Source of the DNA: Nitrospira sp. CG24C
GTDB taxonomy: Bacteria; Nitrospirota; Nitrospiria; Nitrospirales; Nitrospiraceae
Length of the DNA stretch: 64,000 bases
Assembly (NCBI GenBank): GCA_002869885.2
Contig: NEWR02000008.1
Coordinates: 24,204 to 88,203, forward strand
Reading direction: 5' to 3'
In this document: in pieces, positions 4,607-54,519 of the stretch
How positions within the stretch are numbered: the first letter of the stretch is position 1
Layout of the letters: each line of letters opens with the position of its first letter
Program-made: the position numbers and the translations under genes
Notes under the pieces: model-generated
The model's input: the letters and a program-made list of their open reading frames with translations, nothing else
The model's database searches: none
What the model was told of the DNA's origin: nothing

Positions 4607-6103
4607 ATGAAAAACATAAAAACGATCACAATCGACCAACTCAAACCGGGAATGTTCATCGTTGGAATGGACCAGCCTTGGTATCGGACCCCCTTTCTCC
4701 TCCATAAGCGTCTCATCCGCGATACAAAAGACATCGCCCTGCTCCGACAGCATGGGATCAGAGAACTGAAGATAGACCCCAGCCAAGGCCTCGATGCGGA
4801 GCCGGATCCGTCAGGAGTAGCGCCTCCGACGTCGAACACACAGGGCACAGCTGCCGTCCTTCAGTCGAACCTCGCAGGAAAGCCTGCCTCGACAGAAAAG
4901 GCTCCGCAGAGCCCTGCCTCCGTGGAGGTCAGAGAAACGCAACCACCGTCACCTGGCACACAGAAGGACAAGCCGCCGTTGAACAAGAGGGAAGCAACCG
5001 CCGCCCCTCAGCCGAACCATGCGGTGCAGTCCCCTTCACCAAAACAAGCCCCCCTGCCTTCCTCCAGCGTAACAATGAACGGCGTACAACCGCTACCGCC
5101 TATCACACAGGAAGACGTGCCGAGGACATCGACGATGCGGGAACAGGCAGCGGCTGCCCAAGAAACCTACAGAGAAGCAGCCTGTTCGATGGAACGTATG
5201 TTTGAAGAGTTAGAGGCGGGAATCGTCCCTCGGCCGGATACCCTGCGAACAGTCGTCGGAAATGTACTGTCGCGTGTGCTGGACAATGGCGCCTCCATGC
5301 TCAGTCTCCTCTCTTTCCAAAAGATGAAACGGTTCGACCGCACATTGGCCTCCCACGCGCTCGATGTCTGCACCCTCTCACTCATTGTGGCGCATGACTA
5401 TGGAATTGCGGAGGGAGACCTGGACGCGCTCGGCGCCGGCGCCTTGCTGCACGACATCGGCTATGTCCGGTTGCCGCGGAACCTGTACCGCAGAGGCCAG
5501 AGCATCACCGAGCAAGAGCGCGCAACGATGCAGCAGCATCCTGAGCTGGGACTGGCGATCTTACTGGATGCCAAGGAGGAACGGGACGCGGTCGTCCGGA
5601 TTGTCGTGGAACATCATGAGTGCGGCAATGGGAGCGGATTCCCGCACAGACTCACGGGAGACTCTCTCTCGGTCTTGGCGCAACTGGTCGGCTTGGTTGA
5701 TGTCTATGACGGCATGGTGAGTCGCCGTGGAGGACGTCCGGGGATGCTGCCGCACGATGCCATTCGAGAATTGTTCCGCCTTGGGGATACCGGACAATAC
5801 CCAAAGGATTTGATCCAATCCATGATCGGCAGTCTAGGCGTCTATCCGATCGGTAGTCTGGTCCTGTTGAACACGGCAGAACAGGCGGTGGTCGTAGGGA
5901 TGAATCCCACCCAACGGCTCAAACCGGTCGTAAAAGTGATCACAGGACCGCAGGGGGGATCCTATCCCACGCCGATTCGCATTGATCTTGGAACCCAGGT
6001 GCCAGGGGCTACAGTACGGGCCATCACAAAAGTGCTGAATCCCCTCGATGAGCGCGTGAATGTAGCCATGTTTCTTAACGACATCCACGAAGAGGCAGCC
6101 TGA
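4607..6103 (+). CDS. HD-GYP-like protein with altered catalytic motifs
   Basis: The 498 residues repeat the plan of the neighbouring HD-GYP protein: a DUF3391-like N-terminus ([14 protein letters not shown]), then a long Pro/Ser/Thr/Gln-rich linker (about 60-175), then an HD-GYP-type domain. Key motifs deviate: HDIGK is HDIGY (282-286), GYP is GFP (344-346), and the DIYDAVT stretch is DVYDGMV. It may therefore be a weak enzyme or a sensor/scaffold rather than an efficient phosphodiesterase. The stop overlaps the start of the hybrid kinase (TGATG), indicating one operon. Confidence 0.88.
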
Positions 6104-9024
6104 TGAAACAGAAACCAATAAATCGCGGTACTGCATCCCATTCTTCGAGTTCGTCTGCATTCCATAGCCGGATGAGCCCCGCAGTGCTGGACACACTCCC
6201 GATAGGGTTCCTGCTGCTCGATAGCCAGCTTCGCGTCCTGTCCATGAACAGGGAGGCCGCTCGTCTGGTGGGACATTCAGCAGAGTATTGCGCATCAAAG
6301 CTTCTGCGGGAGTTACTGCTCCAGCAGCCCGACACAACCGGTCACACCATCGCGACGCTCATCCAAGCGTCCCTTCCCGAGCACCGGCCCATACAAGCAG
6401 CGCGCGCGACGCTCAAAGACCACACCAACGAACCGCACCAGATCGAATGGACCTATGTTCCGCTGGATGTAGAAGATGATCCCGGCGGGGTGTTGACGCT
6501 CCGCGACCTGACTTGCGAGAGCGAGTTACAGCAAGATCGCGACCGACTGGCGCGCGTCGCAGAAGAAAGTCCTTCCCCCATTATCGAATTGGACTCCGAT
6601 GCGAATCTTGTCTATGCGAACCCTGCGATGACACAATTGCTGCAGCGGTTTGGATATGCTGCCGGAGGATTTCCCTCCGTCTGCCCTGGCGAGCTGGTGC
6701 AACTTGTTCAACGCTGCCTCGAGACAGGAAAAGAGATACGGGGGCAAGAGGTCCGCTTAGCACAGGCCAGCTTCACCTGGATTTTCTGCCCAGTCCCTTC
6801 ACATCGATTGGTTCGGTGCTATGCAGTAGATATGACGGACGTCACGGCAGCCCAAGAGGAGCTGCGCCGGTCGGCGGAACATCTCCAGAACAGCAATTGC
6901 CAATTGGATCAGGCACTCCAGGAAGCGCAGGCTGCCGCTCGCGTGAAGACGGCGTTCCTGGCAACCGTGAGCCATGAGTTGCGGACGCCGATGAACGGAG
7001 TCATCGGGATGACGGACTTACTGATGGATACGGAGCCCTCGGAAGAACAACAGTCCTATATCGAACCCATTCGACAATGCGGCGAGGCCTTGCTGGGCTT
7101 GATCAACGACATTCTTGAATACGGCAAGATCGAAGCCGGCAAACTGGAGTTGGAATGCATCGACTTCAACCTTCGTACGACCGTAGAAGATGTCTTGGGT
7201 CAATTCGCGGAACAAGCCCAAAAGAAAGGGCTGGAAATCACCGGCCTGGTGCATGCTGCCGTGCCGACCGGTCTGCGCGGCGATCCGGGGCGGCTTCGTC
7301 AAATTCTCACGAACTTCGTCGGCAATGCGATCAAGTTTACCAAACAGGGCGATGTGACGGTTCAAGCCTTCCTTGAGAAGGATCTGGTCGATGCGGTGGT
7401 CGTCAGATTCGAAGTCACCGATAGCGGAATCGGTATCCCTCCGGAGGTACAGGCGCGACTGTTCCAACCGTTTACTCAGGCTGACAGCTCCACTTCGCGC
7501 AAATACGGGGGGACCGGGCTAGGGCTCGCAATTTCAAAGCAGCTCATCGAGCAAATGGGCGGCAGTGTCGGCATCACCAGTCAGCCGGGACTTGGCAGTA
7601 CCTTCTGGTGTACCGCCCATTTCACTAAACAAACGATGTCTCCCTTGGCCATCGTGCCGTCGGCTGAGTTGACCGGACGGCGCGTCCTGATCGTAGACGA
7701 CAATGAATCGAACAGAATCATTCTCCATCATCTCGTCACTGGATGGGGCATGCTCGACGATCAAGCCCAGGATGCCGCCTCAGCCATCGCGCTGATCGAA
7801 CAACAGGCGGAAAAAGGCGTGTCGTACGACGTGGCCATCGTCGATATGTTGATGCCGGGCAAGGATGGATTACAACTCGCTAAGGAGCTAAAGGTTCATC
7901 CTGTCGGATCTCTCGTCCGTCTTATCATCCTCACCTCACTCATTCAGCGAGGGCATGCAGAACTGGCACGCCAAGCCGGATTCCTCGCCTATCTCACCAA
8001 GCCCATCCGCCACGATCAACTCTCGAACTGTTTGAGAACCGTTCTGGGTTTGCCGGGGATCACGGGGGAAAGGACGCTGACAGCCGTTGCGGCGCCGGCA
8101 CTGCCGCTCATCACACGGCACACTCTCTCAGAAATAGAGTCAGCGCCAAGAATCCTGGTGGCTGAAGACAATCTTATCAATCAGAAACTGACCGTTCGTC
8201 TGCTGGAGAAGCTCGGCTATCAAGCGGATGTCGTGGAAAACGGCCGCGAAGCCATAGCGGCATTAGCCCGAAACTCCTATGCCATGGTTCTGATGGACTG
8301 CCAAATGCCGCTCCTCGATGGATTAGAAGCCACGCGCCTCATTCGCGAACGCGAAGCGTCTTCGGTACGTGAAGCGCAAGATGAGATGCAAAAGACCCGT
8401 GACGCGAATTCTTCTACCCCTTACCCCTTACCCTTTACCCCTCGGCGCATTCCGATTGTCGCCCTCACGGCCAATGCCATGAGCGGGGATCGAGAACGTT
8501 GCCTCGCAGCCGGTATGAACGATTATTTGACGAAGCCTATCCGGAAGGAAAACCTCAGGGGAGCCCTCGATCGATGGATTGCTGCGCCCATCCAGCCGCA
8601 GGCTTCACCGACCGGCGATGCAAAACACAGCACCGATGGAATAGACGCTGAGGTTCTCCCGGTCATCTTTGACGCGCCTGCGATGTTACGAAACATCGGA
8701 GGCGACACCGCACTATTGGAAGACCTGGTTGAGCTGTTTCTTCAACGCTACCACGCCATGTTGGAAGCGATCCGCGCAGCCTTGGCTACCCGAGATCAAA
8801 AAGCCGTCGAGCAGGCCGCTCATGCGCTGAAAGGGACTGCCGGAAATCTCTGCGCCTCGGAGGTGGTGTTGTACGCTGGACAATTGGAGGCGTTTGGAAG
8901 ACTCGGTACGCTGGGTGAGGGCCCGGTGATCTATACGCAGCTTGAAAAAGCGGTACTCCGCCTCGTTCAACTTTTTAAAAAGCGCAGCAGGCTCCAACAC
9001 GACATCAGGAAACATGCAGCATAA
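6103..9024 (+). CDS. Hybrid sensor histidine kinase (PAS-HisKA-HATPase-REC-REC-HPt)
   Basis: This 973-residue protein has no evident membrane segment. Domains in order are PAS-like regions (about 28-140 and 145-245), HisKA with the phospho-His in SHELRTP (H291), HATPase_c with DSGIGIP and GGTGLGLAI, a first receiver (VDDNESN, acceptor D581), a second receiver (AEDN, acceptor D732) and an HPt domain (H907 in [10 protein letters not shown]). It is thus a full intramolecular phosphorelay. The second receiver carries an extra ~28-residue stretch (752-780) encoded by repeat-like DNA. It is coupled to the HD-GYP-like gene upstream, so output may feed c-di-GMP signalling; that is inference. Confidence 0.93.
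8360..8453 (+). repeat. Repeat-like insertion inside receiver domain of kinase 1
   Basis: The in-frame segment encodes the extra loop between IREREA and [12 protein letters not shown]. Its first half (GTGAAGCGCAAGATGAGATG) matches the insertion in kinase 2. Its second half is a 7-nt array of ACCCCTT units, like that at 30331-30366. Confidence 0.7.
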
Positions 9025-9029
9025 GAGCC

Positions 9030-9186
9030 ACGCTGAAGGCTGAAGGGATTCAGGCTGAAGGCCAGAGATCAGAGAACGAAGCTCCGAATACTTCAGCCTT
9101 TACCCCTTCAGCCTGCACCCCTGCCCCCCTTCAGCCTGAACCCCTGCACTCTGTACCCCTTCAGCCTTTTCATCCTTCACCCTTGA
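9030..9186. repeat. CTTCAGCC-type inverted repeat, copy 2 (overlaps kinase 3' end)
   Basis: GGCTGAAGG arms face CCTTCAGCCTGNACCCC units. The element lies between the two convergent hybrid kinases and its right part is read through as the last ~30 codons of the minus-strand kinase. Confidence 0.75.
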
Positions 9187-11790
9187 GCCCGCCTCACCCA
9201 TCTCCGCTGAAGCGGAAGAGGCCGGCGGAATCCAACGCGCAAGCACCTCGGCTAAAATTTTTGATTGCATGGGTTTGCTGATGTAGTCATCCATGCCGGC
9301 ATCGAGACACTGGATACGATCTTCGGGTTGAGCGTTGGCCGTCATGGCGATGATCGGAATGCGCCGAAGATGCGCGTCGTTCGTGATGCGTGAAGCGTGA
9401 AGCGTCATTGGGATTTCATCTGACGTGTTACGTTCAACGCCTAACGCGTCACACGTTTTGTGTATCTCGTCTGACGTTTCACGTTTCACGTTTAACCTTT
9501 CACGTCTTCTAATTTCCGCCGTCGCGGCGAAGCCATCCATCTCCGGCATCTGGCAATCCATGAGCACCGCCGCGTAGTTAACCCGCCCGAGCGCCTCGAG
9601 CGCCTCTTTGCCATTGGCCGCCAAATCCACCCGATACCCCAACTTCTCCAACATCCTGGTCGCCACCTTCTGGTTGATGACGTTATCCTCGGCGAGCAGA
9701 ATCTTGCGGGTGCCCTGGGCCTTGCCCTCGGCTAAACTGTGGCGCGTGATCAATACGGGAGGCGCCTGCGGCGCCACCACGGCGAGGAGGCACTCATACA
9801 GGCGCGATTCATGTATCGGTTTGGTGAGGTACGCGGTATAGCCTGCCGCCTGCGCCGCCTGGGCATCGCCCCGCTGTCCCTGGGACGTCAAGAGAATGAG
9901 CCGGGTGGGGGCCAGCAGCGGATCGGCCTTGATCGCCTGGGCCAATTCAAAGCCGTCCATCCCGGGCATCTGCATGTCAATGATGGCGAAGTCGCACACG
10001 GTACCCTCCGCAACCGCGGCGCGCAAGCAGGCTAATGCCTCCGGGCCGTCCACGGCCAGTCGGCACCGGACGCCCCATTTCTCCGCATAGACTTCCAGAA
10101 TGCGGCGGTTGGTGGTATGGTCATCCACGATACAGAGGCTGCGCCCGCGCAAATCTTGCGCAGCCCGGTTATCCATCGGTTGCGTGCTAGGCGGCTGAGT
10201 GGCGAGGGAGACCGTGAACCAGAACGTACTGCCTTCCCCCGGACGACTCTCCACCCCGATCTGACCCCCCATCAGCTCCGTGAGCTGTTTGCAGATGGCG
10301 AGCCCCAACCCCGTGCCGCCGTACTTGCGTGTGGTCGAATTATCGGCCTGGCTGAAGGACTGAAACAGGCGCCCTTGCGCCTCAGGGGACAGGCCGATGC
10401 CGGTGTCTTGGATCTCAAACCGCACCGTGACCGAGTCATCGGTGCCGCCCGCCAGCGACACAGAGAGCACGACTTCGCCCTGGGCTGTAAACTTCAGGGC
10501 ATTCGACAGGAGATTCAGCAGAATCTGGCGCAGACGCCCGGGATCGCCCCGGAGAGCGGAGGGGATGTTCGCATGGACCAGGCAGGCCAGGTTCACCCCC
10601 TTGTCAGCGGCAGACTTGGCCACCAGATCCAGCGTTTCGTCGACCGCGGTGCGCAGGTCAAAGTCGATGATTTCTAAGTGCAACTTGCCGGCTTCCATTT
10701 TTGAAAAATCGAGAATGTCGTTGATGATCATGAGCAGGTGCTCCCCACTGCTGCGGACGGTCTCGGCATATTCCCGCTGCTCGGGCGTGAGGTCGGTATC
10801 CAGCAGGAGGCCGGTCATGCCGATGACGCCGTTCATGGGGGTCCGAATCTCATGGCTCATGGTCGACAGAAAGGCCGACTTGGCTTTGACCGCTGACAAC
10901 GCCTGGTCCCGGGCATCGGCCAGTTCAGTCGTCCGCTGGCGCACTTTTTCCTCCAGTGTGACGTTCATCTGGAGCAGCTCCCTGGACTGGGTTTTGATGA
11001 GCCCAACCGTTACCTGGGTCGCGGTCACGGTTTGTTCGAATTCCCCTTGATCGGTTCTGCGCTTCGCCTTAGCCACCTTCTCATCACTCCCCTGGAACAG
11101 CACCACGTCGCCGGAAAGATCAAAGATCGAGAAGGCTTCTTCCAGTTGCGTCAGAATCGAATTGAAGGCCGCACCCACCCGCTTCATGACTAACCGAATG
11201 ACAAAGAAGCCGATCAGGGTTGCAGCCAGCGTGAGAGCGATCGTACGCCACATAGCCAGTGTGATTTCATGTTGTATCCGAGTCAGGGAGTATTCGATAC
11301 GAATCCACGCGGCAATTTCTCGTCCGATATACAATGGCTCCACGAAGACTAGTCCCGGTTCGCCGGCTTGGTTGGGGAACGGACTGAGCTGTTCAATGCC
11401 GGAGCTTCTAGACGTCTCCCACTGAGGATCGTTCAGGACGGTTCCGATCCGTTCAGAATTCTTGGCTGCAACAATCAGGTTGTCCGGATCGATCACATCC
11501 AGTTCCCGGATGTCGGGATTGTTCTGATGGGCCGACAACGCCTCCTGAAAGCGAAACAGATTATTGAGGATCGCTGTCGCTCCGGTCACGGCAAACGCTC
11601 GGCCTATCTCACGCACCTGATTTTCGGCTGCCTGGTAGAGAACCTGCGTCTGCTGGGTGATGGTCCATGCCGAACTGCCACCTAGGATCAGCAGGATGAA
11701 GAGGCAGAGCCCGAGCGCCAGTCTGTTCTGCAGACTACCAGCCCATATGCGCATGAACCCTGTCCAGATGGGGATCGATCGTGTCGGCAT
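9100..11790 (-). CDS. Membrane hybrid sensor histidine kinase (HisKA-HATPase-REC-REC)
   Basis: The 896 residues start with a membrane segment (about 23-45), then a periplasmic sensor (about 46-178), a second membrane helix (about 183-201) and a coiled coil. HisKA follows (SHEIRTP, H313), then HATPase_c ([15 protein letters not shown]), receiver 1 (VDDHTTN, D605) and receiver 2 (AEDN, D745). There is no HPt. Receiver 2 has a ~43-residue insertion (766-808) encoded by heptamer repeat DNA. The tail (861-896) is encoded by a CTTCAGCC-type repeat. Only 19 nt separate it from the cupredoxin gene upstream, so it may be co-transcribed with the cytochrome operon. Confidence 0.92.
9388..9508 (-). repeat. 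Heptamer-repeat insertion inside receiver domain of kinase 2
   Basis: On the plus strand this reads as CGTTTCA-type heptamers (CGTTTCACGTTTCACGTTTA) plus diverged copies. It is in frame and adds about 43 residues between RRRE and [12 protein letters not shown]. The same site in kinase 1 holds a related insertion. Confidence 0.75.
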
Positions 11791-39812: not shown

Positions 39813-40490
39813 CTACGGAGTGGCGAGAAGTTCTTCCGTCAACTTCGCCGCACGTTCGACTTTTACCTGAGCCAGAATCGCCCCGGCCGATTTCGTCTTA
39901 ACCAAACGAAGAATCTCCAGCGCTTTCCGGTCCGCCATTCGCTCGATTCGCGCAGCCGCCTCCTCGGCAGGCATACTTTCATACATTTTTGCCAGCTGCG
40001 CTAGCTGTTGCGCGCGAATGTCGCCTGGTCGTTTGCCCTGTGAAGCTTGTTGAACCAAGACCGCCTTCTCCTGCTCAAGGCGGCGTTTTTCTACCGCTTC
40101 GACTTTGGTCAATATCTGCTCAACCTCAGCTTTGAGAATCGCTAACTGCCCCTCTGCCGTCCGGACTGCTTTCTCGCGACGATCCAAATCCTGCTTCCGC
40201 TGCTGAAACATAGCAACTATTTCCTCCGGCACAACGAGAGCCGGTCCTTGAACCAGCTCTATATCCGACTCGGTTATTTCGTCTCCGGATTTTCCCATTG
40301 GTTCTGCCGGATCTGCCGATACCGGCTTTTTCGGCTCCACCCCCTGTTCGGCCGAAGCCTGGACGAGCTGGACCATCGTCCAGGCCATCGCGATGATCAC
40401 GGCAATCCCGACTCCGACTGCCCAGAGCCGACTGATCCATCCAGGATGCCCAAATTGAGTTGTGTTGTGTATCCGGCTTGTCTGGTTCAT
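39813..40490 (-). CDS. motE: MotE-like flagellar motor chaperone protein
   Basis: About 225 residues: an N-terminal membrane helix (LWAVGVGIAVIIAMAWTMVQLV), a long coiled coil (about residues 95-150) and a C-terminal MgtE-N/MotE-like helical repeat (AKMYESMPAEEAAARIERMADRKALEILRLVKTKSAGAILAQV). Such proteins follow fliJ in many flagellar clusters and aid MotB. The start is unclear: possible ATGs at 40490, 40499 and 40526 all lie inside a 9-nt-period repeat, and no Shine-Dalgarno is visible. Confidence 0.8.
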   Translation of the reverse strand: MNQTSRIHNTTQFGHPGWISRLWAVGVGIAVIIAMAWTMVQLVQASAEQGVEPKKPVSADPAEPMGKSGDEITESDIELVQGPALVVPEEIVAMFQQRKQDLDRREKAVRTAEGQLAILKAEVEQILTKVEAVEKRRLEQEKAVLVQQASQGKRPGDIRAQQLAQLAKMYESMPAEEAAARIERMADRKALEILRLVKTKSAGAILAQVKVERAAKLTEELLATP

Positions 40491-40568
40491 GTGGTTCATC
40501 TGGTTTGTTTTAATTATTTGGTTCATCTGGTTAGTTCGTTCAAGCAAACAAACCAGACAAACCAAATA
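40470..40568. repeat. 9-nt-period inverted repeat, copy 5 (overlaps motE start)
   Basis: Oriented opposite to most copies: the centre reads GGTTAGTTCGTTCAAGC. Units GGTTCATGT, GGTTCATCT, GGTTTGTTT face AAACAAACC, AGACAAACC. The potential motE start codons fall in it. Confidence 0.8.
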
Positions 40569-40592: not shown

Positions 40593-41015
40593 TCACATCA
40601 CACTCATACGACGCGCCGCCTCATCCATTTCCATTTGATCGATTCTGTCTTGTACAAGCTGGCGCTGTTGGCGCATACGTTCAGCCAGACGATCGAGGGT
40701 GCGACGATCTTGCATGGCTTCGCGCAATTCATTCTGCTTCTGATCCCATGCCTTACTGAGCCGCGCTTCCTCCTGCCGGGCTTGCGCCAATAAGGCAGTC
40801 CCGGCCTGAAAGCGGGACTGCCACACCAGAAATTCATCCAGCGCCACTACTCCACAGGCCTTGGCCAGGTATGCGTCTGTCGTGAGTCTCATATGTTCAT
40901 CAAGCAGACGAGCGCGCGCTTCTGAATCTTGAAGTTCCTGGCGCAGTTGGAAGAGGTCCATCCGCGCGACCTCTTCCAACTGCGCCCGATAGCGCCGCAG
41001 CACATCGAGTTTCAT
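40593..41015 (-). CDS. fliJ: FliJ, export ATPase stalk protein
   Basis: This 140-residue protein is almost entirely coiled coil (LDVLRRYRAQLEEVARMDLFQLRQELQD to LAERMRQQRQLVQDRIDQMEMDEAARRMSVM), as in FliJ. FliJ sits in the FliI hexamer and links it to FlhA. Its start overlaps the fliI stop (ATGA), so the two are coupled. Confidence 0.93.
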   Translation of the reverse strand: MKLDVLRRYRAQLEEVARMDLFQLRQELQDSEARARLLDEHMRLTTDAYLAKACGVVALDEFLVWQSRFQAGTALLAQARQEEARLSKAWDQKQNELREAMQDRRTLDRLAERMRQQRQLVQDRIDQMEMDEAARRMSVM

Positions 41016-42319
41016 GCTGTCGCCTTTACCAGTGTAAGTAATTCTTGGATCGAGGAGCCCATCGAGACAGATTGCTCGATATCCTGACGAAGAAAAGCAT
41101 TGATGCCGTCTTGAGCTTTCACGGCTTTGTCTAGATCGCGGTTGGTGCCAGCCTTATAGGCGCCAAGCAGGATGAGATCCTCAGATTGTTGATACCGAGC
41201 CTGCAGCTCGATCATGGACCGAACTGCGGTATAGTGGTCGCGCCCCACAATGTCTTTCATCACCCGACTGGTACTGTTCAAGATGTCGATTGCCGGAAAA
41301 TGGTTGCGCGCGGCCAACTGCCTTGAGAGCACGATGTGGCCGTCCAGGATCGACCGAACCGTTTCTGCAATGGGGTCGGAGAGCTCGTCGCTCTCCATGA
41401 GAACCGTATAGAGCCCGGTGATCGCGCCTGAACCGGAGCCGGTTCCGACCCGTTCCAGAAGTTTGGGCAACATCGTAAAGACGGAGGGGGTATACCCCTT
41501 TGTGGTCGGCGGTTCCCCGATGGCGAGTCCGACTTCGCGTTGGCTATGGGCCAGACGGGTGAGAGAATCCATCATCAAGAGGACCTGCTTGCCGCAGTCG
41601 CGGAAATACTCCGCAATCGAGGTCGCAATCGACGCGCCTCGTAATCGCACGAGCGGTGGTTGGTCTGATGTCGCCACGATCACCACCGAGCGGCTGAGCG
41701 CCTCAGGAGTTAAGTCGCGCTCCAGAAATTCGTTAACTTCCCGCCCCCGTTCGCCGATGAAGGCGATGACATTCACGTCGGCTTTCGTGTAACGGCTGAT
41801 CATGCCAAGCAACACGCTCTTCCCGACACCGGAACTGGCAAAGATGCCGACCTTCTGACCACGGCCGCACGTCAGACAGGCGTTGATCGCCCGGATGCCC
41901 AAATCGAGCGGTTCAGCGATGCGCGTTCTCTTCAACGGATTGATCGGCGCGGCATGCAACGGATAGCGTTGTTCGGTCATGAGGGGACCGCGGCCATCCA
42001 ATGGCTCCCCAAGCCCGTTGAGCACACGACCGAGCAGTTGTGGGCCGACCGGAACCGAGGCACAGTGCCCTTTCATCAGCAGCCGGCTGCCTGGCCCAAT
42101 CCCGCGCATCTCACCGAGCGGCATCAGTAACACGCGGTCGCCGCGAAATCCCACTACCTCCGCCTGCACGATTCCCTCTCCATCTTCGCGCGTGACGTCG
42201 CACAGTTCCCCGACCGATGTCATGGGGCCATAGCCTTCGATCACAATCCCAACGGCCTGCGCCACACGCCCCGAGACCGCAAGAGGGTCTGTCTGTTCAA
42301 TGAGATCGACGAGATTCAC
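41012..42319 (-). CDS. fliI: FliI, flagellar export ATPase
   Basis: I place the start at GTG 42319 (ribosome site GAGGG), giving 435 residues beginning VNLVDLIEQTDPLAVSGRVAQAVG. Walker A is ASSGVGKS, followed by IGERGREVNEFLE, Walker B VLLMMDSLTR and GSGAITGLYTVLMESDELSDPIAE. FliI is an F1-beta-like ATPase that energises export. The start lies 23 nt inside the end of the REC-fliH gene. An ATG-started longer frame overlaps it further and lacks family support. Confidence 0.95.
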   Translation of the reverse strand: MNLVDLIEQTDPLAVSGRVAQAVGIVIEGYGPMTSVGELCDVTREDGEGIVQAEVVGFRGDRVLLMPLGEMRGIGPGSRLLMKGHCASVPVGPQLLGRVLNGLGEPLDGRGPLMTEQRYPLHAAPINPLKRTRIAEPLDLGIRAINACLTCGRGQKVGIFASSGVGKSVLLGMISRYTKADVNVIAFIGERGREVNEFLERDLTPEALSRSVVIVATSDQPPLVRLRGASIATSIAEYFRDCGKQVLLMMDSLTRLAHSQREVGLAIGEPPTTKGYTPSVFTMLPKLLERVGTGSGSGAITGLYTVLMESDELSDPIAETVRSILDGHIVLSRQLAARNHFPAIDILNSTSRVMKDIVGRDHYTAVRSMIELQARYQQSEDLILLGAYKAGTNRDLDKAVKAQDGINAFLRQDIEQSVSMGSSIQELLTLVKATA

Positions 42320-43355
42320 GATGCCCTCGCTTCTGTAGGGCCTCTCCGAGCCGCAGCAACTGCTGGTCCAGTGAGGCATCAACCAGTCGATTCGTCGATT
42401 GTACGACACAGCTTCCGCGCGAGAGAGACGAATCGCCTTCGACATGCATCGCAAAAGCCGGGGGCCGATCGCGGCACAACTCCGCGCGAGCCGCCTCTAG
42501 GACCGGGGCATCGGTGGGATGCGTTCGCACCGTGACGACCCCTGCCTCCCGAACCGTCGCCAGGGCCGACTTCAGCAATGCGGTCACGGCATCCTGACGT
42601 TCAATAATCGTGTCGCGCAGAATGCGTGTCGCCAGGCTGAAGGCTAGCGCCGTCACGTCATCTTCGATGGTCTGGTGCAGCGATGCTCGAGTGTCATCGA
42701 GTCGCCGAACTGCATCGGCCAAGAGCATCTGCTCCTGTCGTCTGGCTGCCGCGACTCGCGCGTCTGCTCGTCGTTCACCCTCAACGATACCTTGATCGTA
42801 GTCCGAGAGACTCTGATCGCCGACAAACCGATCGCCGGTGCCGAAATCAGTCAGCGCAAGACTGCGGCAGCGAACCCCCGAGGCGCGAATCACCGCCTGC
42901 TTGAGGACCGTATTCTCCGAACGCAGGTGATACAGATCAAGGAGGCGATTCACGGTCAGCTGTAGCGCTTCGACTTCGAACGGTTTCATCAGAAACTCCG
43001 CCGCTCCAGCCTTCATCGCCTGAACCGCGAGATCCACCGTGCCATATCCGGTCATCACCAGCCCCATCAGGCGGTGGTCGAGTTCACAGGCCTGCTGGAG
43101 CAGCGCGATGCCGTCTTGGTCCGGCAATTTAACGTCGGTGATCAAGAGCGAGACGGGAGACTCTTTCAATGATGCATAGGCTTCCCGTGCAGACCCGACC
43201 GCGCGCACACGATGCCCCGCCGATTGCAACAACTTCACTAATAGTTCCCTGATCGCCTCCTCATCGTCGACGACTAAGATCGAACTATTTCGTTGCCCAC
43301 TGGGGCTGGCGTATGGCTGGGCGACTGCCGACTGTCCATTCACAGCCTGTTCCAT
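42297..43355 (-). CDS. fliH: Receiver domain fused to FliH, export ATPase regulator
   Basis: The 352 residues form an unusual two-part protein. Residues 25-140 are a complete NtrC-type receiver: acid pair D30-D31, acceptor D74 (ITDVKLPD), T102 (MTGYG) and K124 (LMKPFE), followed by the helical linker seen in NtrC proteins. Residues about 185-352 are FliH: a coiled coil (GIVEGERRADARVAAARRQEQ), FSLATRILRDTII and GSCVVQSTNRLVDASLDQQLLRLGEAL. FliH binds and restrains FliI and tethers it to FliN. It lies exactly where fliH should be, one nt after fliG and overlapping fliI. All phosphorylation residues are present, so export may be tuned by phosphorylation; that is inference. Confidence 0.9.
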   Translation of the reverse strand: MEQAVNGQSAVAQPYASPSGQRNSSILVVDDEEAIRELLVKLLQSAGHRVRAVGSAREAYASLKESPVSLLITDVKLPDQDGIALLQQACELDHRLMGLVMTGYGTVDLAVQAMKAGAAEFLMKPFEVEALQLTVNRLLDLYHLRSENTVLKQAVIRASGVRCRSLALTDFGTGDRFVGDQSLSDYDQGIVEGERRADARVAAARRQEQMLLADAVRRLDDTRASLHQTIEDDVTALAFSLATRILRDTIIERQDAVTALLKSALATVREAGVVTVRTHPTDAPVLEAARAELCRDRPPAFAMHVEGDSSLSRGSCVVQSTNRLVDASLDQQLLRLGEALQKRGHRESRRSH

Positions 43356-44354
43356 TTACAGCATTGCCTCCGCTCCACCGGCGCTGGCGATGACGATGCG
43401 CCCTTCTTCTTCAAGTTTCCGGCAGACTTTGAGGATGTTCTGCTGCGCCTTCTCGACATCCGCCACCTTCATCGGCCCCCTTGCCTCCATGTCGTCTTTC
43501 AACATCTCCGACGCCCGACTCGACATATTTTTCAGGAACTTCTCCTTGGTTTCCGGGCTCGCGCCACGCAATGCCACAGGAAGATCTTCCTTGCTGACCT
43601 CTTTCATGAGCTCTTGCATGCCACGGTCATCGAGCTTAATCAGATCGTCGAAGACGAACATCAATCCTCTGATGGTATCGGCCAATTGCTGATCGCGCTC
43701 GGCGATTTTCGACATGATGCTCCCCTCCGTGGCTTTGTCGAGGGTTGTCAGAATATTCGCCGCCGCTTCAGCGCCGCCGACACTTTGCGCGCGAGTGCCG
43801 GTATTCGCAACGAGTGAGCTCTGCAATGCGTCGCTGAGTTCCTCCAGCACGCTGGGCTGTAAATCCTCCATCGTCGCAAGGCGCAGAGCGACATCCACTC
43901 GAAGGGATTCAGGTAAGTCGGCCATGACGACGCCTGCCTGATCCGGATCCATGTGCGCCAGTATCACGGAGATCGTCTGGGGATGCTCGGTCTTGATCAT
44001 TTGTGAAACAGCCTTCGCATCGACCCACTTCATTGCGTCGAGCCCCGGATACACCTTGCTGGTCATGGACTCGAGCATGCGGCTGGCTTTTTCAGGGCCG
44101 AGCGCCTTGGACAGAATGGTTTTGATGTAGTCTTTTCCATGGAACGACATCTGACCGTTTGCGCTCGCCTTCTCAAATTCATCGATGACGATCGATTCCT
44201 CTTCCCTGGTGATATTCGCCGTCGCATTCATGGAGGCCCCCAGTCGGCGGATCTCCTTAGGGTCAAGGCTCTTCATCACCAATGCCGCGGCGTCCTCTCC
44301 GATCGCTTTCAGAAGGATCGCCGCCTTTTGCTCGCCGCTGAGTTCCGTGGCCAT
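43356..44354 (-). CDS. fliG: FliG, motor switch and torque protein
   Basis: The 332 residues have the three FliG domains: N-terminal FliF-binding (QKAAILLKAIGEDAAALVMKSLDPKEIRRL), the middle domain with EHPQ (MIKTEHPQTISVILAHMDPDQAG) and the C-terminal torque helix (FVFDDLIKLDDRGMQELMKEVSKEDLPVALRGA). It is followed immediately by REC-fliH and preceded by fliF. Confidence 0.97.
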   Translation of the reverse strand: MATELSGEQKAAILLKAIGEDAAALVMKSLDPKEIRRLGASMNATANITREEESIVIDEFEKASANGQMSFHGKDYIKTILSKALGPEKASRMLESMTSKVYPGLDAMKWVDAKAVSQMIKTEHPQTISVILAHMDPDQAGVVMADLPESLRVDVALRLATMEDLQPSVLEELSDALQSSLVANTGTRAQSVGGAEAAANILTTLDKATEGSIMSKIAERDQQLADTIRGLMFVFDDLIKLDDRGMQELMKEVSKEDLPVALRGASPETKEKFLKNMSSRASEMLKDDMEARGPMKVADVEKAQQNILKVCRKLEEEGRIVIASAGGAEAML

Positions 44355-47481: not shown

Positions 47482-48888
47482 TTATGCAGAGTCCTGGCAA
47501 CTTACCCCTCGATACTCGCGAAGTTTGTTACGCAACGTACGGATGCTGATCCCGAGTTCTTTCGCCGCATGAGTACGATTCTCCCTCACGCGTGTGAGGG
47601 TCTGAAAAATCAGTTCCCGCTCCATTTCCCACAGAGAACCGTTTCCAGAAGGCTGCGGCACCGATGAGACTGGAGCGGGAGACACCGGTTGTCCGACGGA
47701 TTCCACCAACAAGTGGCTCGGAAGGATCGGCTCGTTCCCGGCTAAGAGCACGGCCCGTTCCATGACGTTTTGCAGTTCGCGCACATTCCCTTTCCATCGT
47801 CGGTCTTGGAGCATCGCGCAGGCCTCCGCCGACATTGTCGGCAGCGGAAGACTATTGCGCGCCGCGGAGACTGCCACAAAATGCCTCGCGAGCAGCGGAA
47901 TATCCGCGGGCCGCTCCCGCAACGGAGGGACCGTGACGGGGAATACGTTCAACCGGTAATACAAGTCTTCCCGAAACCGCCCCTGCTCCACTTCGTGATA
48001 GAGCGATCGGTTGGTCGTCGCAATGACCCGAATATTCACGGATACAGGGTCCCTCCCTCCGACGCGATCCACTTCCCGCTCCTGGATCACTCGGAGCAAC
48101 TTGGCCTGCAGGCCCATGTTCATTTCGCTGATTTCATCCAGCAACAGCGTGCCGGTATGCGCCATCTCAAACTTGCCGATTTTTTTCATGATGGCGCCGG
48201 TAAATGCGCCGCGCTCATGGCCGAACAGTTCGCTCTCCAGAAGCCCGTCGGGTAAGGCCGCGCAATTCACGGCAATAAACGGTCGGTGGGCACGAGGGCT
48301 TCTATTATGAATAAAGCGGGCCAGCAGTTCTTTCCCTGTGCCGCTTTCTCCATTAATTAGGATCGTCGCTTGACTCGCAGCGACTCCCTCAACGGTGCTG
48401 AGCAGGCGGACCATGCCAGGATCTTGAGTCAGGATAGACCGCTGGTCGATCGGCGCAGGAGATGACGCTGAGGCATCAGCGCCACGCGCTTTCAGATTGG
48501 CGATCACACGCTCGAGCAAGTCCGTGGAGAACGGCTTGAGAATGTAATCGCTCGCCCCGTATTTCATCGCGTCCACGGCAGTCTCCACCGTCCCGTAGGC
48601 CGTCATCAGGACCATCAACGTCTGAGGCGAACGGCGTTTAATTTCCTTGATCAGATCGAGACCGCCAAGACGCGGCATCTTCAGATCCGTCACCACCAAC
48701 CAGGGTTTGTAGCGGCTGACCCGATCCACGGCGTCGGCGCCATCGATCGCGCCCTGTACGTCATAGCCGAGACGACGAACGGACTCCACTAAGGCCGTCC
48801 GCATGGATGGATCGTCATCGACGATCAAGATTCGCTCAGCTTGCGTGGGAGCTTCCGTCGCAAGGCCTGCTGTGCCGTGTTCGCTCAT
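47482..48888 (-). CDS. FlrC/FleR-like sigma-54 response regulator
   Basis: The 468 residues have a receiver (acid residues at 23-26, acceptor D68 in VTDLKMP), an AAA+ domain with Walker A GESGTGKE and the sigma-54 loop GAFTGA, and a Fis-type HTH (RTHAAKELGISIRTLRNKLREY). It is coupled by a 4-nt overlap to its kinase and lies directly upstream of flgB, the arrangement of FlrB/FlrC (FleS/FleR), which switch on basal-body and hook genes. Confidence 0.9.
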   Translation of the reverse strand: MSEHGTAGLATEAPTQAERILIVDDDPSMRTALVESVRRLGYDVQGAIDGADAVDRVSRYKPWLVVTDLKMPRLGGLDLIKEIKRRSPQTLMVLMTAYGTVETAVDAMKYGASDYILKPFSTDLLERVIANLKARGADASASSPAPIDQRSILTQDPGMVRLLSTVEGVAASQATILINGESGTGKELLARFIHNRSPRAHRPFIAVNCAALPDGLLESELFGHERGAFTGAIMKKIGKFEMAHTGTLLLDEISEMNMGLQAKLLRVIQEREVDRVGGRDPVSVNIRVIATTNRSLYHEVEQGRFREDLYYRLNVFPVTVPPLRERPADIPLLARHFVAVSAARNSLPLPTMSAEACAMLQDRRWKGNVRELQNVMERAVLLAGNEPILPSHLLVESVGQPVSPAPVSSVPQPSGNGSLWEMERELIFQTLTRVRENRTHAAKELGISIRTLRNKLREYRGVSCQDSA

Positions 48889-50189
48889 GCGGAAGTCTCC
48901 TCTTCAACGAAGTGGCGTTCACCGATCATGGCAGAGACACCGGTTCCGGCTCCGCGATCAGGCTCAGGACGTTCAGGCGCCTCGATACGAACCGACTCTC
49001 GGCGATGCGGCAGTACGATCGTCAATGTCGTACCGCGCCCTTCAACGCTTTCCACGTCGATCCGGCCCCGATGCGCTTCGACAATCGCGTGGACAATCGC
49101 CAGCCCTAACCCGGTGCCTTCGTCCCTCGTGGTGAAAAATGGGTCGAAAATCTTCGAGCGCTGGGCCGGCGCAATGCCTACGCCGGTATCCGAGACCGAG
49201 AGACGAAACACCGGCCCTCCGGGAGTCTGTTCCTCTGTAAGAGCCGCCGACAACGTCAGCGTTCCACTGCCGGGCATGGCGTGAATGCTGTTTAGAATCA
49301 AGTTCAGGAGCACTTGTTTCATTTGCCCTGCGTCGCACCAAATCCGGGATGCCAGAGGATCGACTTTCAGGCGAATGTCGATTCTGGTATTGGCCACGGC
49401 ATGGGCGGCGAGCGTCAAGGCATCGAGCATGAGCGCTTCCGTCTCATGCCACTTTCCATGGGAACAATCCGGTTTGGTATAGAGCAGAAGGTTGGTCAGA
49501 AGACGATTCATCATGTGGACAGACGATGAAATATGCTCGGCGTACCCTCGCAATGCCGGGGCGCCATTCAAATCACGGCGCAGCATCGACGCAAACAGTT
49601 CGATACTACCCAAGGGATTCCGGATTTCATGGGCTATCCGTCCGACCATTTCACCCATGGCCTCCAGCCGATTGCGGCGCTGCAGCCGATCCTCCAGTTC
49701 TCGCACCGCCGTGACGTCCTGGATCAACAGCAAACTCCCGGCATGGCGCCCATCGCTGCTCCGCAAGTCGCGCTTGGAGAGTGCGACAGCAGCCCCCTGT
49801 TGTGTCGTCAAGGGATAGCCGCCGCCGTCCAGCTCCGCCTCCCTAAGACAAACGGCTAACGACCGGCCGATTATCTGTCCGCGCTTGAGCCCGATGAATT
49901 GCTCGCCGGCCTGGTTACAACGTGTAATCAATCCTTCCGTATCCATGACGAGCAATCCCGTTGAAAGAGACTCCACAATCGCCGTCAAGTGCTCCCGCAA
50001 TTCTTCATTCGTGCGCAGATTCCGGCTGAGCGCCTCGTTGCGGTCGGCCAGTTCTACGTCAAGCTGCTCCAATCGTGACGTCATCGTCTGATAGGACTGT
50101 TGCAACGTCGCCGCCGCATCGTCGAAACTGCGAAAGGCTTCGTGCAACAAATCGCTATCCGCAGTCGCAGAAATAGGCTGTACGTTCAT
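48885..50189 (-). CDS. FlrB/FleS-like histidine kinase
   Basis: From ATG 50189 (ribosome site AAGGAGAA; ATG 50207 is an alternative) the 434 residues have no membrane helix. They contain an N-terminal helical region, a PAS domain (VESLSTGLLVMDTEGLITRCNQAGEQFIG), HisKA with phospho-His in GRIAHEIRNPLGSIELFASML, and HATPase_c ([29 protein letters not shown]). The soluble PAS kinase form matches FlrB/FleS. It starts a few nt after the TPR gene and overlaps its regulator. Confidence 0.9.
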   Translation of the reverse strand: MNVQPISATADSDLLHEAFRSFDDAAATLQQSYQTMTSRLEQLDVELADRNEALSRNLRTNEELREHLTAIVESLSTGLLVMDTEGLITRCNQAGEQFIGLKRGQIIGRSLAVCLREAELDGGGYPLTTQQGAAVALSKRDLRSSDGRHAGSLLLIQDVTAVRELEDRLQRRNRLEAMGEMVGRIAHEIRNPLGSIELFASMLRRDLNGAPALRGYAEHISSSVHMMNRLLTNLLLYTKPDCSHGKWHETEALMLDALTLAAHAVANTRIDIRLKVDPLASRIWCDAGQMKQVLLNLILNSIHAMPGSGTLTLSAALTEEQTPGGPVFRLSVSDTGVGIAPAQRSKIFDPFFTTRDEGTGLGLAIVHAIVEAHRGRIDVESVEGRGTTLTIVLPHRRESVRIEAPERPEPDRGAGTGVSAMIGERHFVEEETSA

Positions 50190-50193
50190 CACA

Positions 50194-52344
50194 TTATTCT
50201 CCTTCATTCGCCTTTGTCGCTTGGAGGCCTGGTTGCATCGCTCCCGCCGCCCGATGGAACAACGGATCGGTAAATTCTGCGTCTGGCGCCGTGGCACTCG
50301 ACCGGGCTCCTTGAGGATTCTTGGCCTCAGGGTTCAGCATGATCTGCACCCTGGCCCATTCGGCCTCTATAGAATTAGGTCCAGCCTTCAGCACCTGCCG
50401 GTAGAGCTCCACGGCATGCTCCCGGTGATTCAGCTGTAAGAGCAGATCGGCATACGACAGAAGATCCTGCGGCTCACGGAGGACGTTGTTTCGCAATGCA
50501 TTCTCGAATATCGCTGCAGCCTCTTCTCGCTTCTGTTCTTCGAGCAATGTCCGCGCAAGCGTCAGAGACATCCAACCTTGCGCCGCATCGCGCGGGTGCA
50601 ACTTGGTCCAGTGCCTCATGACTCTGATAGCGCTCCGGCGATCTCCCTGCTCAAGCATGGCCGTCGTCAATTGCCGTGAGACCAGCGGCGATCGTGGGCT
50701 CTGCGGATACTGAAGGCGGAAACCTTCGAACACGTTCCTGGCAGCCGCAGGATCGAGCTGATCCAAATAACTCTCGCCAAGGCCAAGAAGCACCTCTTCG
50801 TGAAATGCAGTCGCCTTCCGATTCTTCACCAACGTTTGATAGAGATGCACCGCTTCGGTTGAGAAGCCCAACCGGCGATGCCTGTCGGCCACCTCCAATA
50901 ATGTCCTTGTCCCTATGTAATGCTGCTCTGGGGCATGGCCATGGCTATGGAACAGCATGACCGCCAGGACATCCTTCTTGTCCTTGAGCGCCGTTTCTAA
51001 CTGGGGCTTCAGAAGCGAGGCCAGATGGAGTCCGGCAGTCTGAGGCCAGGGATCATCTGGAATGACACCGGTTCGCCGAGTGACGTCTTGATAGACCTTG
51101 ATGCCTCGCACAGGGTTTCCTCGTAACTCATAGTGCTCAGCCAGGTAATAGAGCGCCTCACTACCGAGAATATCGTTCTGATGTTCAAGAGCGATGGTCT
51201 TATAGATTTCCTCTCCTTCTGATGCATCCAGGTAGGAGAGGCCCCTCCCCCGGATCATGCCTTCAACTTTTTTTTGCAAGAAGCTCTCTCCTGCAGACGC
51301 CGCAATTTCCTGTTCTTGCCGTGCCAGGCGTATACGGGCGGCGACCGCTGCCGCCATATCTGCATACTGAGTCCGGGCTGCTGCATAAAAAAACTCTGCC
51401 TTTGTTCCCAGACCGAGCCGGCCGTGACTGTCTCCAAGGCGCACGAGCGCCGTACCAGCGTGCCGGTGTGAAGGGAAGAGGTTGTACAGGAGGAGATCGA
51501 TCTCGCATGCTCTTTTCAGTTCCTGAACCTCAATGAGGGCATCGCCATACTGCTGCAATGCATCGGGATTTTGCTTGAGAAGATTCCGCCAGCGCCGATA
51601 CAGGAAGTCGTATAGCGGTACCGCGTCACGCTTGCGCCTTTGGACGTAGAGGGCATTGGCCTGATTGAACGTCGCCCGTACAATAAGACGATCATCCATC
51701 GCGCGTTCTCGAACCGTTTCGAAGGCCCGTTCCGCTTCCGTCCATCTCCCCAACTTTCCAAGTGTGACCCCCAACGCGAGCAACGATCGATCCGCATCGT
51801 GATGCGGCAGGCCGAGGGAAAGAGCATATTGGTAGGCGACAATGGCCTCCTGGTACCATCCCATTTCGGTATAGAGATCGCCGACCCGCCAGTAGGCCCT
51901 GAACGCATTGGGATTCTTCGTATATGCGCCAATAATGCTGCGATATTGCGTAATCGCCTCTCTGCGCCCATGGTCGGTCGGATCCTCCAGCAGAGTGAGT
52001 TCCGCCATGAATGCCTTCAACGGCGGAATCAATGGACTGGTGGAATCGAGAGCGGCAAGCGCATCAAACCCTGCACGGGCTGCGGCATACTGCCCACGAC
52101 CGAGCGCCTTCACTGCTTCCTGGAATGGTAACGCCCCTGGCCCCTCGACGGTTCGATCATAGCGGGGCCCATCGTCAGGCAAGGCGAGCGGGGAAGCCTC
52201 CGACCTCGCCTGAGGGGACATCGTGCGGGTGGGCGATGGCATCGCCTGAGGCTCTCGTGGATCAGCGGCAGATGCAATCTGAAGCGCAGATCCATGCGCA
52301 AACACACAGACGATCAACAAATTGCATAATGTGCTCATTCTCAT
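50194..52344 (-). CDS. Secreted TPR-repeat protein of the flrBC operon
   Basis: About 716 residues, with a signal peptide (MSTLCNLLIVCVFAHGSALQIASA) followed by many tetratricopeptide-type helical repeats (for example AYWRVGDLYTEMGWYQEAIVAYQYALSLG, VGDSH-like RLGDSHGRLGLGTKAEFFY, LLQLNHREHAVELYRQVLKAGPNSIEAEWARVQ). TPR proteins act as scaffolds; the partner is unknown. It is the first gene behind a sigma-54-type promoter and ends 4 nt before the flrB-like kinase start, so it is probably co-regulated. TTG 52350 and ATG 52338 are alternative starts. Confidence 0.82.
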   Translation of the reverse strand: MRMSTLCNLLIVCVFAHGSALQIASAADPREPQAMPSPTRTMSPQARSEASPLALPDDGPRYDRTVEGPGALPFQEAVKALGRGQYAAARAGFDALAALDSTSPLIPPLKAFMAELTLLEDPTDHGRREAITQYRSIIGAYTKNPNAFRAYWRVGDLYTEMGWYQEAIVAYQYALSLGLPHHDADRSLLALGVTLGKLGRWTEAERAFETVRERAMDDRLIVRATFNQANALYVQRRKRDAVPLYDFLYRRWRNLLKQNPDALQQYGDALIEVQELKRACEIDLLLYNLFPSHRHAGTALVRLGDSHGRLGLGTKAEFFYAAARTQYADMAAAVAARIRLARQEQEIAASAGESFLQKKVEGMIRGRGLSYLDASEGEEIYKTIALEHQNDILGSEALYYLAEHYELRGNPVRGIKVYQDVTRRTGVIPDDPWPQTAGLHLASLLKPQLETALKDKKDVLAVMLFHSHGHAPEQHYIGTRTLLEVADRHRRLGFSTEAVHLYQTLVKNRKATAFHEEVLLGLGESYLDQLDPAAARNVFEGFRLQYPQSPRSPLVSRQLTTAMLEQGDRRSAIRVMRHWTKLHPRDAAQGWMSLTLARTLLEEQKREEAAAIFENALRNNVLREPQDLLSYADLLLQLNHREHAVELYRQVLKAGPNSIEAEWARVQIMLNPEAKNPQGARSSATAPDAEFTDPLFHRAAGAMQPGLQATKANEGE

Positions 52345-52361
52345 AGACAAGTTGTAGGTTC

Positions 52362-52780: not shown

Positions 52781-54208
52781 TCATGCTGCAGAGAACTGCT
52801 CAGAGACCCGCAGCCCCTGGGCCTTCGACACAAACCCTTTCCGTTTCATCTTCTCGATGAGTGTGGTGCGGTTCACCTGGAGCAACTGAGCCGCCTTACT
52901 CGTAATCCCATTGGCCTGGCGAAGCGCGTCCACAATCAACCGGTTCTCGAGCTGTTCAATCTCTCGCGGCAAATTCACCCCCTGGTCGCTGAAGTTGATG
53001 AAGTGCGCTGCAGTCTGTTCCGCGGCGACCGGAGAGCGCCTGATGCGTTCTGGAAGATCAGCGGCTTCGATTGTCCCTGAGCGGCTCAGCACCGCGAAGC
53101 GCTCGACCATATTTTCTAATTCTCGAATATTCCCCGGCCAGTGATATTCCATCAAACGGGCCATCGCGTCCGGGGAACAGCCTGTCATCTCAGTCGGCTT
53201 GCCATGATTCAACTTCGCAAGAAAATGGTTCACCAATTGCGGGATATCGCTTCTGCGCTCCCTCAGAGGTGGAATGGTGACAGGAATCACATTCAGACGA
53301 TAGTACAGATCTTCCCGGAAACGCTTCTGCCGGACGGCCTCCTCCAAATCTTGATTGGTGGCGGCGACGACACGGACATCCACGTCGATCGTTTTCGTAC
53401 CCCCTACTCGTTCGAACGAACGCTCTTGGAGGACGCGAAGCAGTTTCACTTGCAGCCCGAGGCTCAACTCGCCGATTTCGTCGAGAAAGATCGTTCCACC
53501 GTGCGCCGATTCAAAGCGCCCGATGCGCGTTTGAACTGCGCCGGTAAACGCTCCCTTCTCGTGCCCAAACAACTCAGACTCGAGTAGGTTCTCAGGAATG
53601 GCGCCACAGTTGACCGGGATGAGCGGACGATCTTTACGCGCGCTGTTAAAATGCAGCATCCGCGCGACCAACTCCTTGCCTGTTCCACTCTCCCCCTGGA
53701 TCAAGACCGTGCTGCCGTGATCTGCAACCTTTGTCACAAACTCAAGGACCTGCCGGATCGGTTCGCTGGTGCCGACGAACTGCTCCATTTGATATCGGTC
53801 ACGGACAGATTTTCGAGACGACAGCGTGCTCTGCCTGCGGCGATAGGCCTCCAGCGCCCTATTGATGGTAATCGTAAAGACCTCGTTGTCGAACGGTTTT
53901 GTCAAGAAGTCGAAAGCGCCGGCCTTCATGGCCTTGACCGCACAGTCGATTGAGCCGTAACCGGTCATCACAATCCCAATCACCTTGGAATCGATCTGGT
54001 GGATGCGCTCCAGAACGGCCAGTCCATCGATATCGGGCAGCTTTAGATCAGTCATCAGCACATGAACGGGAATCTCTTTGGCCACGCGAATGGCCTCCAG
54101 TCCGCTCCCGACAATCGTCGCCTCATGACCTGCTTGAGAGAACAGCCTCCGGAGCAGGTCCTGCAGGCTTTCATCATCTTCGACCACAAGAATCGATACC
54201 GTACTCAT
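52781..54208 (-). CDS. FlrA/FleQ-like sigma-54 activator with receiver domain
   Basis: From ATG 54208 (ribosome site GAGGGG) the 475 residues have a full receiver (D54 in MTDLKLPD), an AAA+ domain with GESGTGKE and GAFTGA, and a Fis-type HTH (ITSKAAQLLQVNRTTLIEKMKRKGF). The NRTTLxEKM ending is the one seen in FleQ/FlrA. True FleQ/FlrA receivers usually lack the acceptor Asp; here it is present, so this may be a phosphorylatable relative. Its HTH type fits the FleQ-like boxes found at two promoters. Confidence 0.85.
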   Translation of the reverse strand: MSTVSILVVEDDESLQDLLRRLFSQAGHEATIVGSGLEAIRVAKEIPVHVLMTDLKLPDIDGLAVLERIHQIDSKVIGIVMTGYGSIDCAVKAMKAGAFDFLTKPFDNEVFTITINRALEAYRRRQSTLSSRKSVRDRYQMEQFVGTSEPIRQVLEFVTKVADHGSTVLIQGESGTGKELVARMLHFNSARKDRPLIPVNCGAIPENLLESELFGHEKGAFTGAVQTRIGRFESAHGGTIFLDEIGELSLGLQVKLLRVLQERSFERVGGTKTIDVDVRVVAATNQDLEEAVRQKRFREDLYYRLNVIPVTIPPLRERRSDIPQLVNHFLAKLNHGKPTEMTGCSPDAMARLMEYHWPGNIRELENMVERFAVLSRSGTIEAADLPERIRRSPVAAEQTAAHFINFSDQGVNLPREIEQLENRLIVDALRQANGITSKAAQLLQVNRTTLIEKMKRKGFVSKAQGLRVSEQFSAA

Positions 54209-54519
54209 ACTGGTATTCCCCTCGCTTTCTTTCTTGCTGTCATAAAATTTACGCAGTGCATCAATACTAAGCGTAGAAGAAATTTTCATATTCGAAAGTG
54301 CGTAATGGCCCTTATCAAGAATGAGTTTCAGCCATATAATGATGGAGCCCATAGATCCTATATGTAATTGACATACAGTCTATTCAGCTCTATTCGTATG
54401 GTCTTTGGCAGTGGAGTGAGCTGTTGCGGGGAAGCATGCCAACACGCCTTCAAGTGAAAGCGTCTATCTTTCTTAGAATGCCGCGGCTAGAGGGAGGGAA
54501 ACAAGCCAGTTGCGAAGGG
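54209..54519. other. Promoter region of the FlrA-like gene
   Basis: The 311-nt gap holds copy 1 of a 19-nt element also found upstream of the NarL-type regulator. A weak FleQ-like dyad (GTCATAAAATTTAC, 54239-54252) could allow self-regulation; I give it little weight. No gene is seen. Confidence 0.45.
54378..54396. promoter_or_regulatory. 19-nt shared regulator-gene element, copy 1
   Basis: On the minus strand CGAATAGAGCTGAATAGAC contains GAATAGA twice, 10 nt apart, as a direct repeat. An identical 19-mer lies at 55447-55465. Direct repeats one helical turn apart are typical of response-regulator binding sites. Confidence 0.5.

Follow-up and report, generated by a model that had tools for sequence, protein, structure and literature searches.

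Does a two-component signal act directly on the flagellar export machinery in Nitrospira? Known controls on flagellar export are the order of transcription, chaperones, hook-length switching and the proton motive force; the papers found do not establish two-component control of the export ATPase complex. The question is raised by a gene in a 64,000-nucleotide stretch of the genome of Nitrospira sp. CG24C (the window), which encodes a phospho-receiver domain and FliH, the stator of the export ATPase, in a single protein. This protein, REC-FliH, is probably (at a rough probability of 0.6) a response regulator that has the export-ATPase stator as its output, with phosphorylation gating either the docking of the FliH2-FliI complex or the state of the FliH dimer.

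The rec-fliH gene and its locus

The gene encoding REC-FliH lies at 42297..43355 on the minus strand. An earlier note on this DNA had described an in-frame fusion of a receiver and FliH at these coordinates, in the place where fliH belongs, between fliG and fliI. Both Pfam domains do lie within one 352-residue open reading frame with an ATG start, and Pfam matches and sequence place that frame between fliG (43356..44354, minus strand) and the open reading frame of the export ATPase gene fliI (41012..42454, minus strand). The coordinates were correct, but the strand had been left unstated; many stops occur on the plus strand across the interval. The ATG follows directly on the fliG stop codon (TAA, 43358-43356) with zero gap. 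To judge from the sequence, the true start of fliI is probably inside its open reading frame, overlapping the 3' end of fliH.

Pfam Response_reg is found at residues 26-135 of the window protein (E 8.1e-25) and Pfam FliH at residues 207-334 (E 2.9e-16). The match to FliH (PF02108) scores 60 bits against a curated cut-off of 24.1, and 62.2 bits in a search of the genome, in which REC-FliH is the sole FliH. The sigma-54 interaction AAA+ and HTH domains are absent from REC-FliH according to Pfam. The Pfam-matched receiver has its acidic pair, Asp acceptor, Thr and Lys all present, and a check of the sequence located D30, D31, D74, T102 and K124 exactly where they had been placed by the earlier note.

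Further along the same strand, behind fliJ, is a gene for a MotE-like coiled-coil protein (39813-40565, minus strand), which has no Pfam match yet occurs in all neighbourhoods compared. In one other genome (G007, L097:6959-8305, minus strand), FliJ and the MotE-like coiled coil share one open frame, a possible fusion or frameshift, where the window has two genes.

Structure of the fusion protein

A single-chain AlphaFold2 model of REC-FliH was built from 48 aligned sequences. The receiver (residues 23-135; 42951..43289, minus strand), delimited by Pfam, conservation and model confidence, is confidently modelled, with pLDDT of about 90-95. In Foldseek searches its fold matches the receivers of NtrC1, NtrX, DctD and FleR, with TM scores to the target of at most 0.94 and rmsd of about 1 Å, and structures of NtrC1, NtrX and DctD that include the linker are among the best matches. 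The receiver leads into alpha5 and an NtrC-type linker helix (residues 128-157; 42885..42974, minus strand). Such a helix had been proposed for this protein; in the model it appears as a single 32-residue helix spanning residues 128-159, and its homology to the linker of a neighbouring regulator (see below) reaches residue 157.

Beyond the helix is a flexible spacer (residues 158-183; 42807..42884, minus strand), of which residues 160-180 are predicted to be disordered (pLDDT <50). The remainder of the protein (residues 184-352; 42297..42806, minus strand) comprises the FliH coiled-coil stalk, which begins at residue 185 in the model, and the C-terminal FliI-binding domain after it. The orientation of the receiver relative to FliH is not fixed in the model (pTM 0.41). 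When the C-terminal 169 residues are modelled separately, pLDDT is 93, and a fold search with that model ranks the FliH-FliI complex (5b0o) first, with the peripheral stalks of V-ATPases (E/G) next. A profile of the C-terminal part likewise has 5b0o as its best match (E 3.4e-13); a phmmer search of the C-terminal half against the PDB gave zero matches.

Distribution in the Nitrospiraceae and beyond

A 31-row profile of the fusion was searched across 137 genomes of the GTDB family (Nitrospiraceae). End-to-end matches are present in 94 of these, representing 9 genera and including some one-contig genomes, a recurrence well beyond what chance would produce. The fusions score 381-543 bits, and the next-best match of any type in the 137 genomes scores 173 bits. 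The receiver is absent from all 31 FliH proteins examined outside the family, sister families included, and FliH open frames elsewhere in the phylum are about 170-313 residues long among the matches listed. In two other phyla (398 and 284 genomes, best 5-7 candidates per genome), no REC-FliH occurs among the roughly 150 matches listed, the best of which are lone receivers scoring at most 139.5 bits; a fusion there should top the list at 380 bits or more, because fusions do so in the family. Betaproteobacterial scan matches (L044-L048) were considered as REC-FliH and rejected, being receivers only at loci that also carry an unfused FliH.

Within the family, the sister genera g18 and g19 encode an unfused FliH with an outgroup-like N-terminal peptide (ARILK/ALILK); their flagellar cluster is otherwise complete, with only the fusion missing. 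Genomes with and without the fusion have an identical gene order, flgB-flgC-fliE-fliF-fliG-fliH-fliI, and in the unfused relatives compared fliG and fliH have no receiver gene between them. An artefact of assembly or annotation that joined two genes, a concern raised by the earlier note, is thus vanishingly improbable and was discarded, given that 94 genomes share the architecture, some of them in one contig, and that separate receiver and fliH genes were sought at this locus in relatives and none were found.

A single gain of the fusion agrees with a tree built from FliF, FliG, FliI and FlgC, although the fork that unites g22/g25 with the other fused genera is weak (70/53). One genome (G1124) carries REC-FliH twice, on contigs C33 and C47, which perhaps reflects a mixed metagenome assembly.

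Origin of the receiver

The receiver closest to that of REC-FliH in the genome, at 49% identity, belongs to RR2 (52781..54352, minus strand), an orphan REC-sigma54-AAA-HTH activator. RR2 is located upstream of TPR-flrB-flrC, a location conserved across the sampled order and corresponding to that of FlrA/FleQ in Vibrio and Pseudomonas. FlrA/FleQ receivers are usually degenerate; the RR2 receiver is intact, with D, T and K retained.

Receivers of FliH and RR2 group together in a 103-row tree (96 SH-aLRT) and in a 71-row tree (93/98). In the latter, the FliH receivers form one clade (95/89) nested in the RR2 set, which argues that one copying event supplied them. In the receiver trees, this group stands apart from the rest of the genome's sampled receivers, including that of the FlrC-like REC-sigma54-AAA activator (47482..48888, minus strand; Pfam), which forms a separate clade. 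FlrC is thereby ruled out as the source.

Homology to RR2 is not limited to the receiver, continuing through the linker to residue 157 (47% identity, E 1.5e-54, HHalign). In other genera, RR2 linkers show LRQENHLLRKAVR at the position of LRxENTVLKQAVVR in FliH, and receiver and linker were therefore acquired together. By these comparisons, the receiver and linker of REC-FliH are a duplicate of those of RR2 in the same cluster, an origin that the earlier note had overlooked.

The junction with FliH

Profiles of unfused FliH align with the fusion from residue 146 on (98% probability, HHalign), mostly through the stalk. The stretch 146-157 thus aligns with both parents, the RR2 linker and unfused FliH. 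The end of the helix (ENTVLK) was considered as the VIK motif of unfused FliH, as the alignment had hinted; the RR2 linkers with LRQENHLLRKAVR assign it to the receiver linker instead. In unfused FliH, the part that aligns with the spacer is the N-terminal peptide, in a stretch (146-172) where the HHalign alignment is weak. In column counts, spacer residue F171 is conserved in 39 of 41 sequences, and only L or F occurs at position 168.

Ahead of the stalk, 21 of 34 unfused FliH proteins have a [VI][IVL]K motif, which occurs in 1 of the 49 fused N-terminal tails and in none of the 49 fused spacers. These counts suggest that the N-terminal motif was lost in the fusions. FliH is a coiled-coil dimer that restrains FliI, and its N terminus (W7, W10 in Salmonella) binds FliN and FlhA (PMC9114704). 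It may be that a docking peptide of this kind persists in the spacer of REC-FliH, directly behind the receiver helix.

Conservation of the receiver

Conservation was counted over 49 distinct fusions from 7 sampled genera. D74, T102, G103, K124 and P125 are invariant (49/49). D30 is D in 47 fusions and E in the other 2, and D31 is D in 45 and gone in 4. Loss of this second acidic residue is seen in L092 and L114 (both VDAD), L113 (VDHD) and L005 (VDGD), all of which retain D74, T102 and K124. It possibly weakens Mg2+ binding in those species, and since D31 is missing in these 4 of 49 fusions, the switch may be weaker in some species.

Between relatives, dN/dS is about 0.01-0.17 for the receiver, similar to the C-terminal domain of FliH, and by this measure purifying selection on the receiver equals that on FliH. 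Of all segments, conservation is highest in the linker helix (mean majority 0.77), with R137, R145 and L151 invariant in column counts. The overall pattern looks like that of a working receiver with working output coupling.

These data also bear on whether the receiver is needed as a receiver at all. It might be chiefly a structural cap for dimerisation or docking, replacing or aiding the N-terminal peptide of FliH, with phosphorylation of minor importance. A long helix of the dimerisation type beside the stalk would suit such a role, as would a receiver that is tied to no kinase and that lacks D31 in four fusions, and in ordinary FliH a peptide alone suffices at this place (PMC9114704). This is an unlikely account of REC-FliH, however, because D74, T102 and K124 would be structurally dispensable and are nonetheless kept in 49 of 49 fusions across the 7 sampled genera. 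Pseudo-receivers usually lose the Asp acceptor, the Thr and the Lys.

Candidate kinases

As possible phosphodonors, the earlier note had pointed to two hybrid kinases and an FlrB-like kinase nearby; none of them now stands out as an obvious donor. The hybrids are in the region 4607-11790, in which an HD-GYP protein, a PAS-HK-REC-REC-Hpt hybrid and an HK-REC-REC hybrid adjoin one another, at a distance of about 31 kb from fliH. Nothing was found that ties these hybrid kinases to REC-FliH, and FlrB stands alone as the kinase of the conserved cluster.

The FlrB-like PAS histidine kinase (48885..50297, minus strand), identified by Pfam and synteny, is presumed to partner FlrC. In FlrC, the alpha1 specificity residues are invariant (M15, A18, E21 and R25, Spo0F numbering), and the beta5-alpha5 loop is near-fixed, with S/A at position 107 (Spo0F numbering). 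REC-FliH has mostly I/V, L, a variable residue, S/P/Q and Q/E at these positions; it retains a VMTG motif and the alpha1 I/V and L that are RR2-like, in which it is unlike FlrC. With the FlrC contact positions near-fixed and those of FliH and RR2 variable and differing from them, FlrB is disfavoured as the main donor, and a kinase of RR2 is left as a candidate. The reading in which FlrB phosphorylates both REC-FliH and FlrC, prompted by the earlier note, draws on FlrB being the sole histidine kinase of the conserved cluster; its chances appear slim in view of these fixed FlrC residues and of the fact that FlrB occurs just as regularly with an unfused FliH.

No kinase is conserved beside RR2 in the relatives compared, and RR2 is an orphan within the window. 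Between RR2 and flrB, and conserved alongside them, is a gene encoding a 718-residue TPR protein (50194-52350, minus strand), which is possibly a partner of a checkpoint kinase.

A proposed mechanism

On the reading preferred here, that of a response regulator with a stator output, the RR2 receiver and its dimerising linker helix were copied once and attached to the FliH N terminus, in an ancestor within the Nitrospiraceae. A kinase, possibly one that also serves RR2, would phosphorylate D74, and the NtrC-type dimer formed by alpha4-beta5-alpha5 and the linker would change upon phosphorylation. In receivers of the NtrC1 and DctD type, dimers form via alpha4-beta5-alpha5 together with the linker helix and are altered by phosphorylation. 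In REC-FliH, this change could alter the docking of FliH2-FliI at the basal body, or the continued inhibition of FliI. A shift in docking is plausible because the linker helix ends just before the putative FliN/FlhA docking peptide and the FliH dimer stalk. Flagellar protein export would in this way be coupled post-translationally to the signalling that activates the flagellar genes.

The activity of FlgS, FlrB and FleS in polar flagellates depends on assembly of the MS ring, rotor and export gate (PMC7064773). A kinase of this kind could therefore give the stator and the promoters one message. There is an even chance that a phosphorelay in the Nitrospiraceae switches flagellar export, through the docking or activity of FliI, in response to the same signal as transcription, with the stator as the response-regulator output; export would share that signal because the receiver descends from the sigma-54 activator of the cluster itself.

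The flow of information might also run the other way, with REC-FliH acting as a phosphate sink or feedback sensor that competes with RR2 for one kinase, such that the state of the stator tunes transcription. Its derivation from RR2 and its RR2-like features, unlike those of FlrC, are consistent with such competition, as is the dependence of FlgS, FlrB and FleS activity on assembly state (PMC7064773). The specificity positions of the FliH and RR2 receivers have diverged within genomes, however, with 3-9 of 15 identical and drift between genera, and a sink would not need to be fused to the stator; this reading is accordingly very doubtful.

Returning to direct control of the stator, a receiver is built into this component across a bacterial family, at the place where FliH docks and dimerises. 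This suggests that the family switches flagellar export by direct phosphorylation, beyond turning genes on and off. REC-FliH also provides a natural construct for asking whether FliH docking or the restraint of FliI is a regulated step, long a matter of debate because export can run without FliH-FliI, and it is a clear example of how the receiver of a neighbouring regulator was duplicated and given a new output. Among nitrite oxidisers and complete ammonia oxidisers, Nitrospira hold a major place, and REC-FliH may therefore bear on the decision between swimming and living in flocs.

Comparison with known systems

The earlier note knew of no described REC-FliH protein, and the fusion is likewise undescribed in the papers searched, a set that excludes subscription papers and domain databases, so that an earlier listing is possible. 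As far as can be told, both halves are of known kinds, and what is new is that they are combined, that the combination is fixed across the family and that it arose with the help of a neighbouring regulator, the source of the receiver.

REC-FliH resembles FliH/SctL proteins (PF02108, 5b0o) in its stalk and C-terminal FliI-binding domain, in the fliG-fliH-fliI gene order and in being present as a single copy. It differs in the added N-terminal phospho-receiver and linker helix, and in having a docking peptide that is at most internal. With NtrC-type regulators (NtrC1, DctD, NtrX and RR2) it shares a receiver with an intact active site and an extended alpha5 linker, homologous to residue 157, but its output is an ATPase stator rather than an AAA+ activator with a DNA-binding domain.

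The FlgSR, FlrBC and FleSR systems are similar in that they involve the same gene cluster and a two-component control that is linked to assembly of the MS ring, rotor and export gate. What they control is transcription, and no export component is itself the response regulator there. CheY and other receivers that work on the flagellum through protein contact are, like REC-FliH if the proposed model is right, phospho-receivers that act directly on the flagellar machinery. However, CheY is free and diffusible and acts on FliM/FliN to control rotation, whereas the receiver of REC-FliH is held covalently in the export apparatus.
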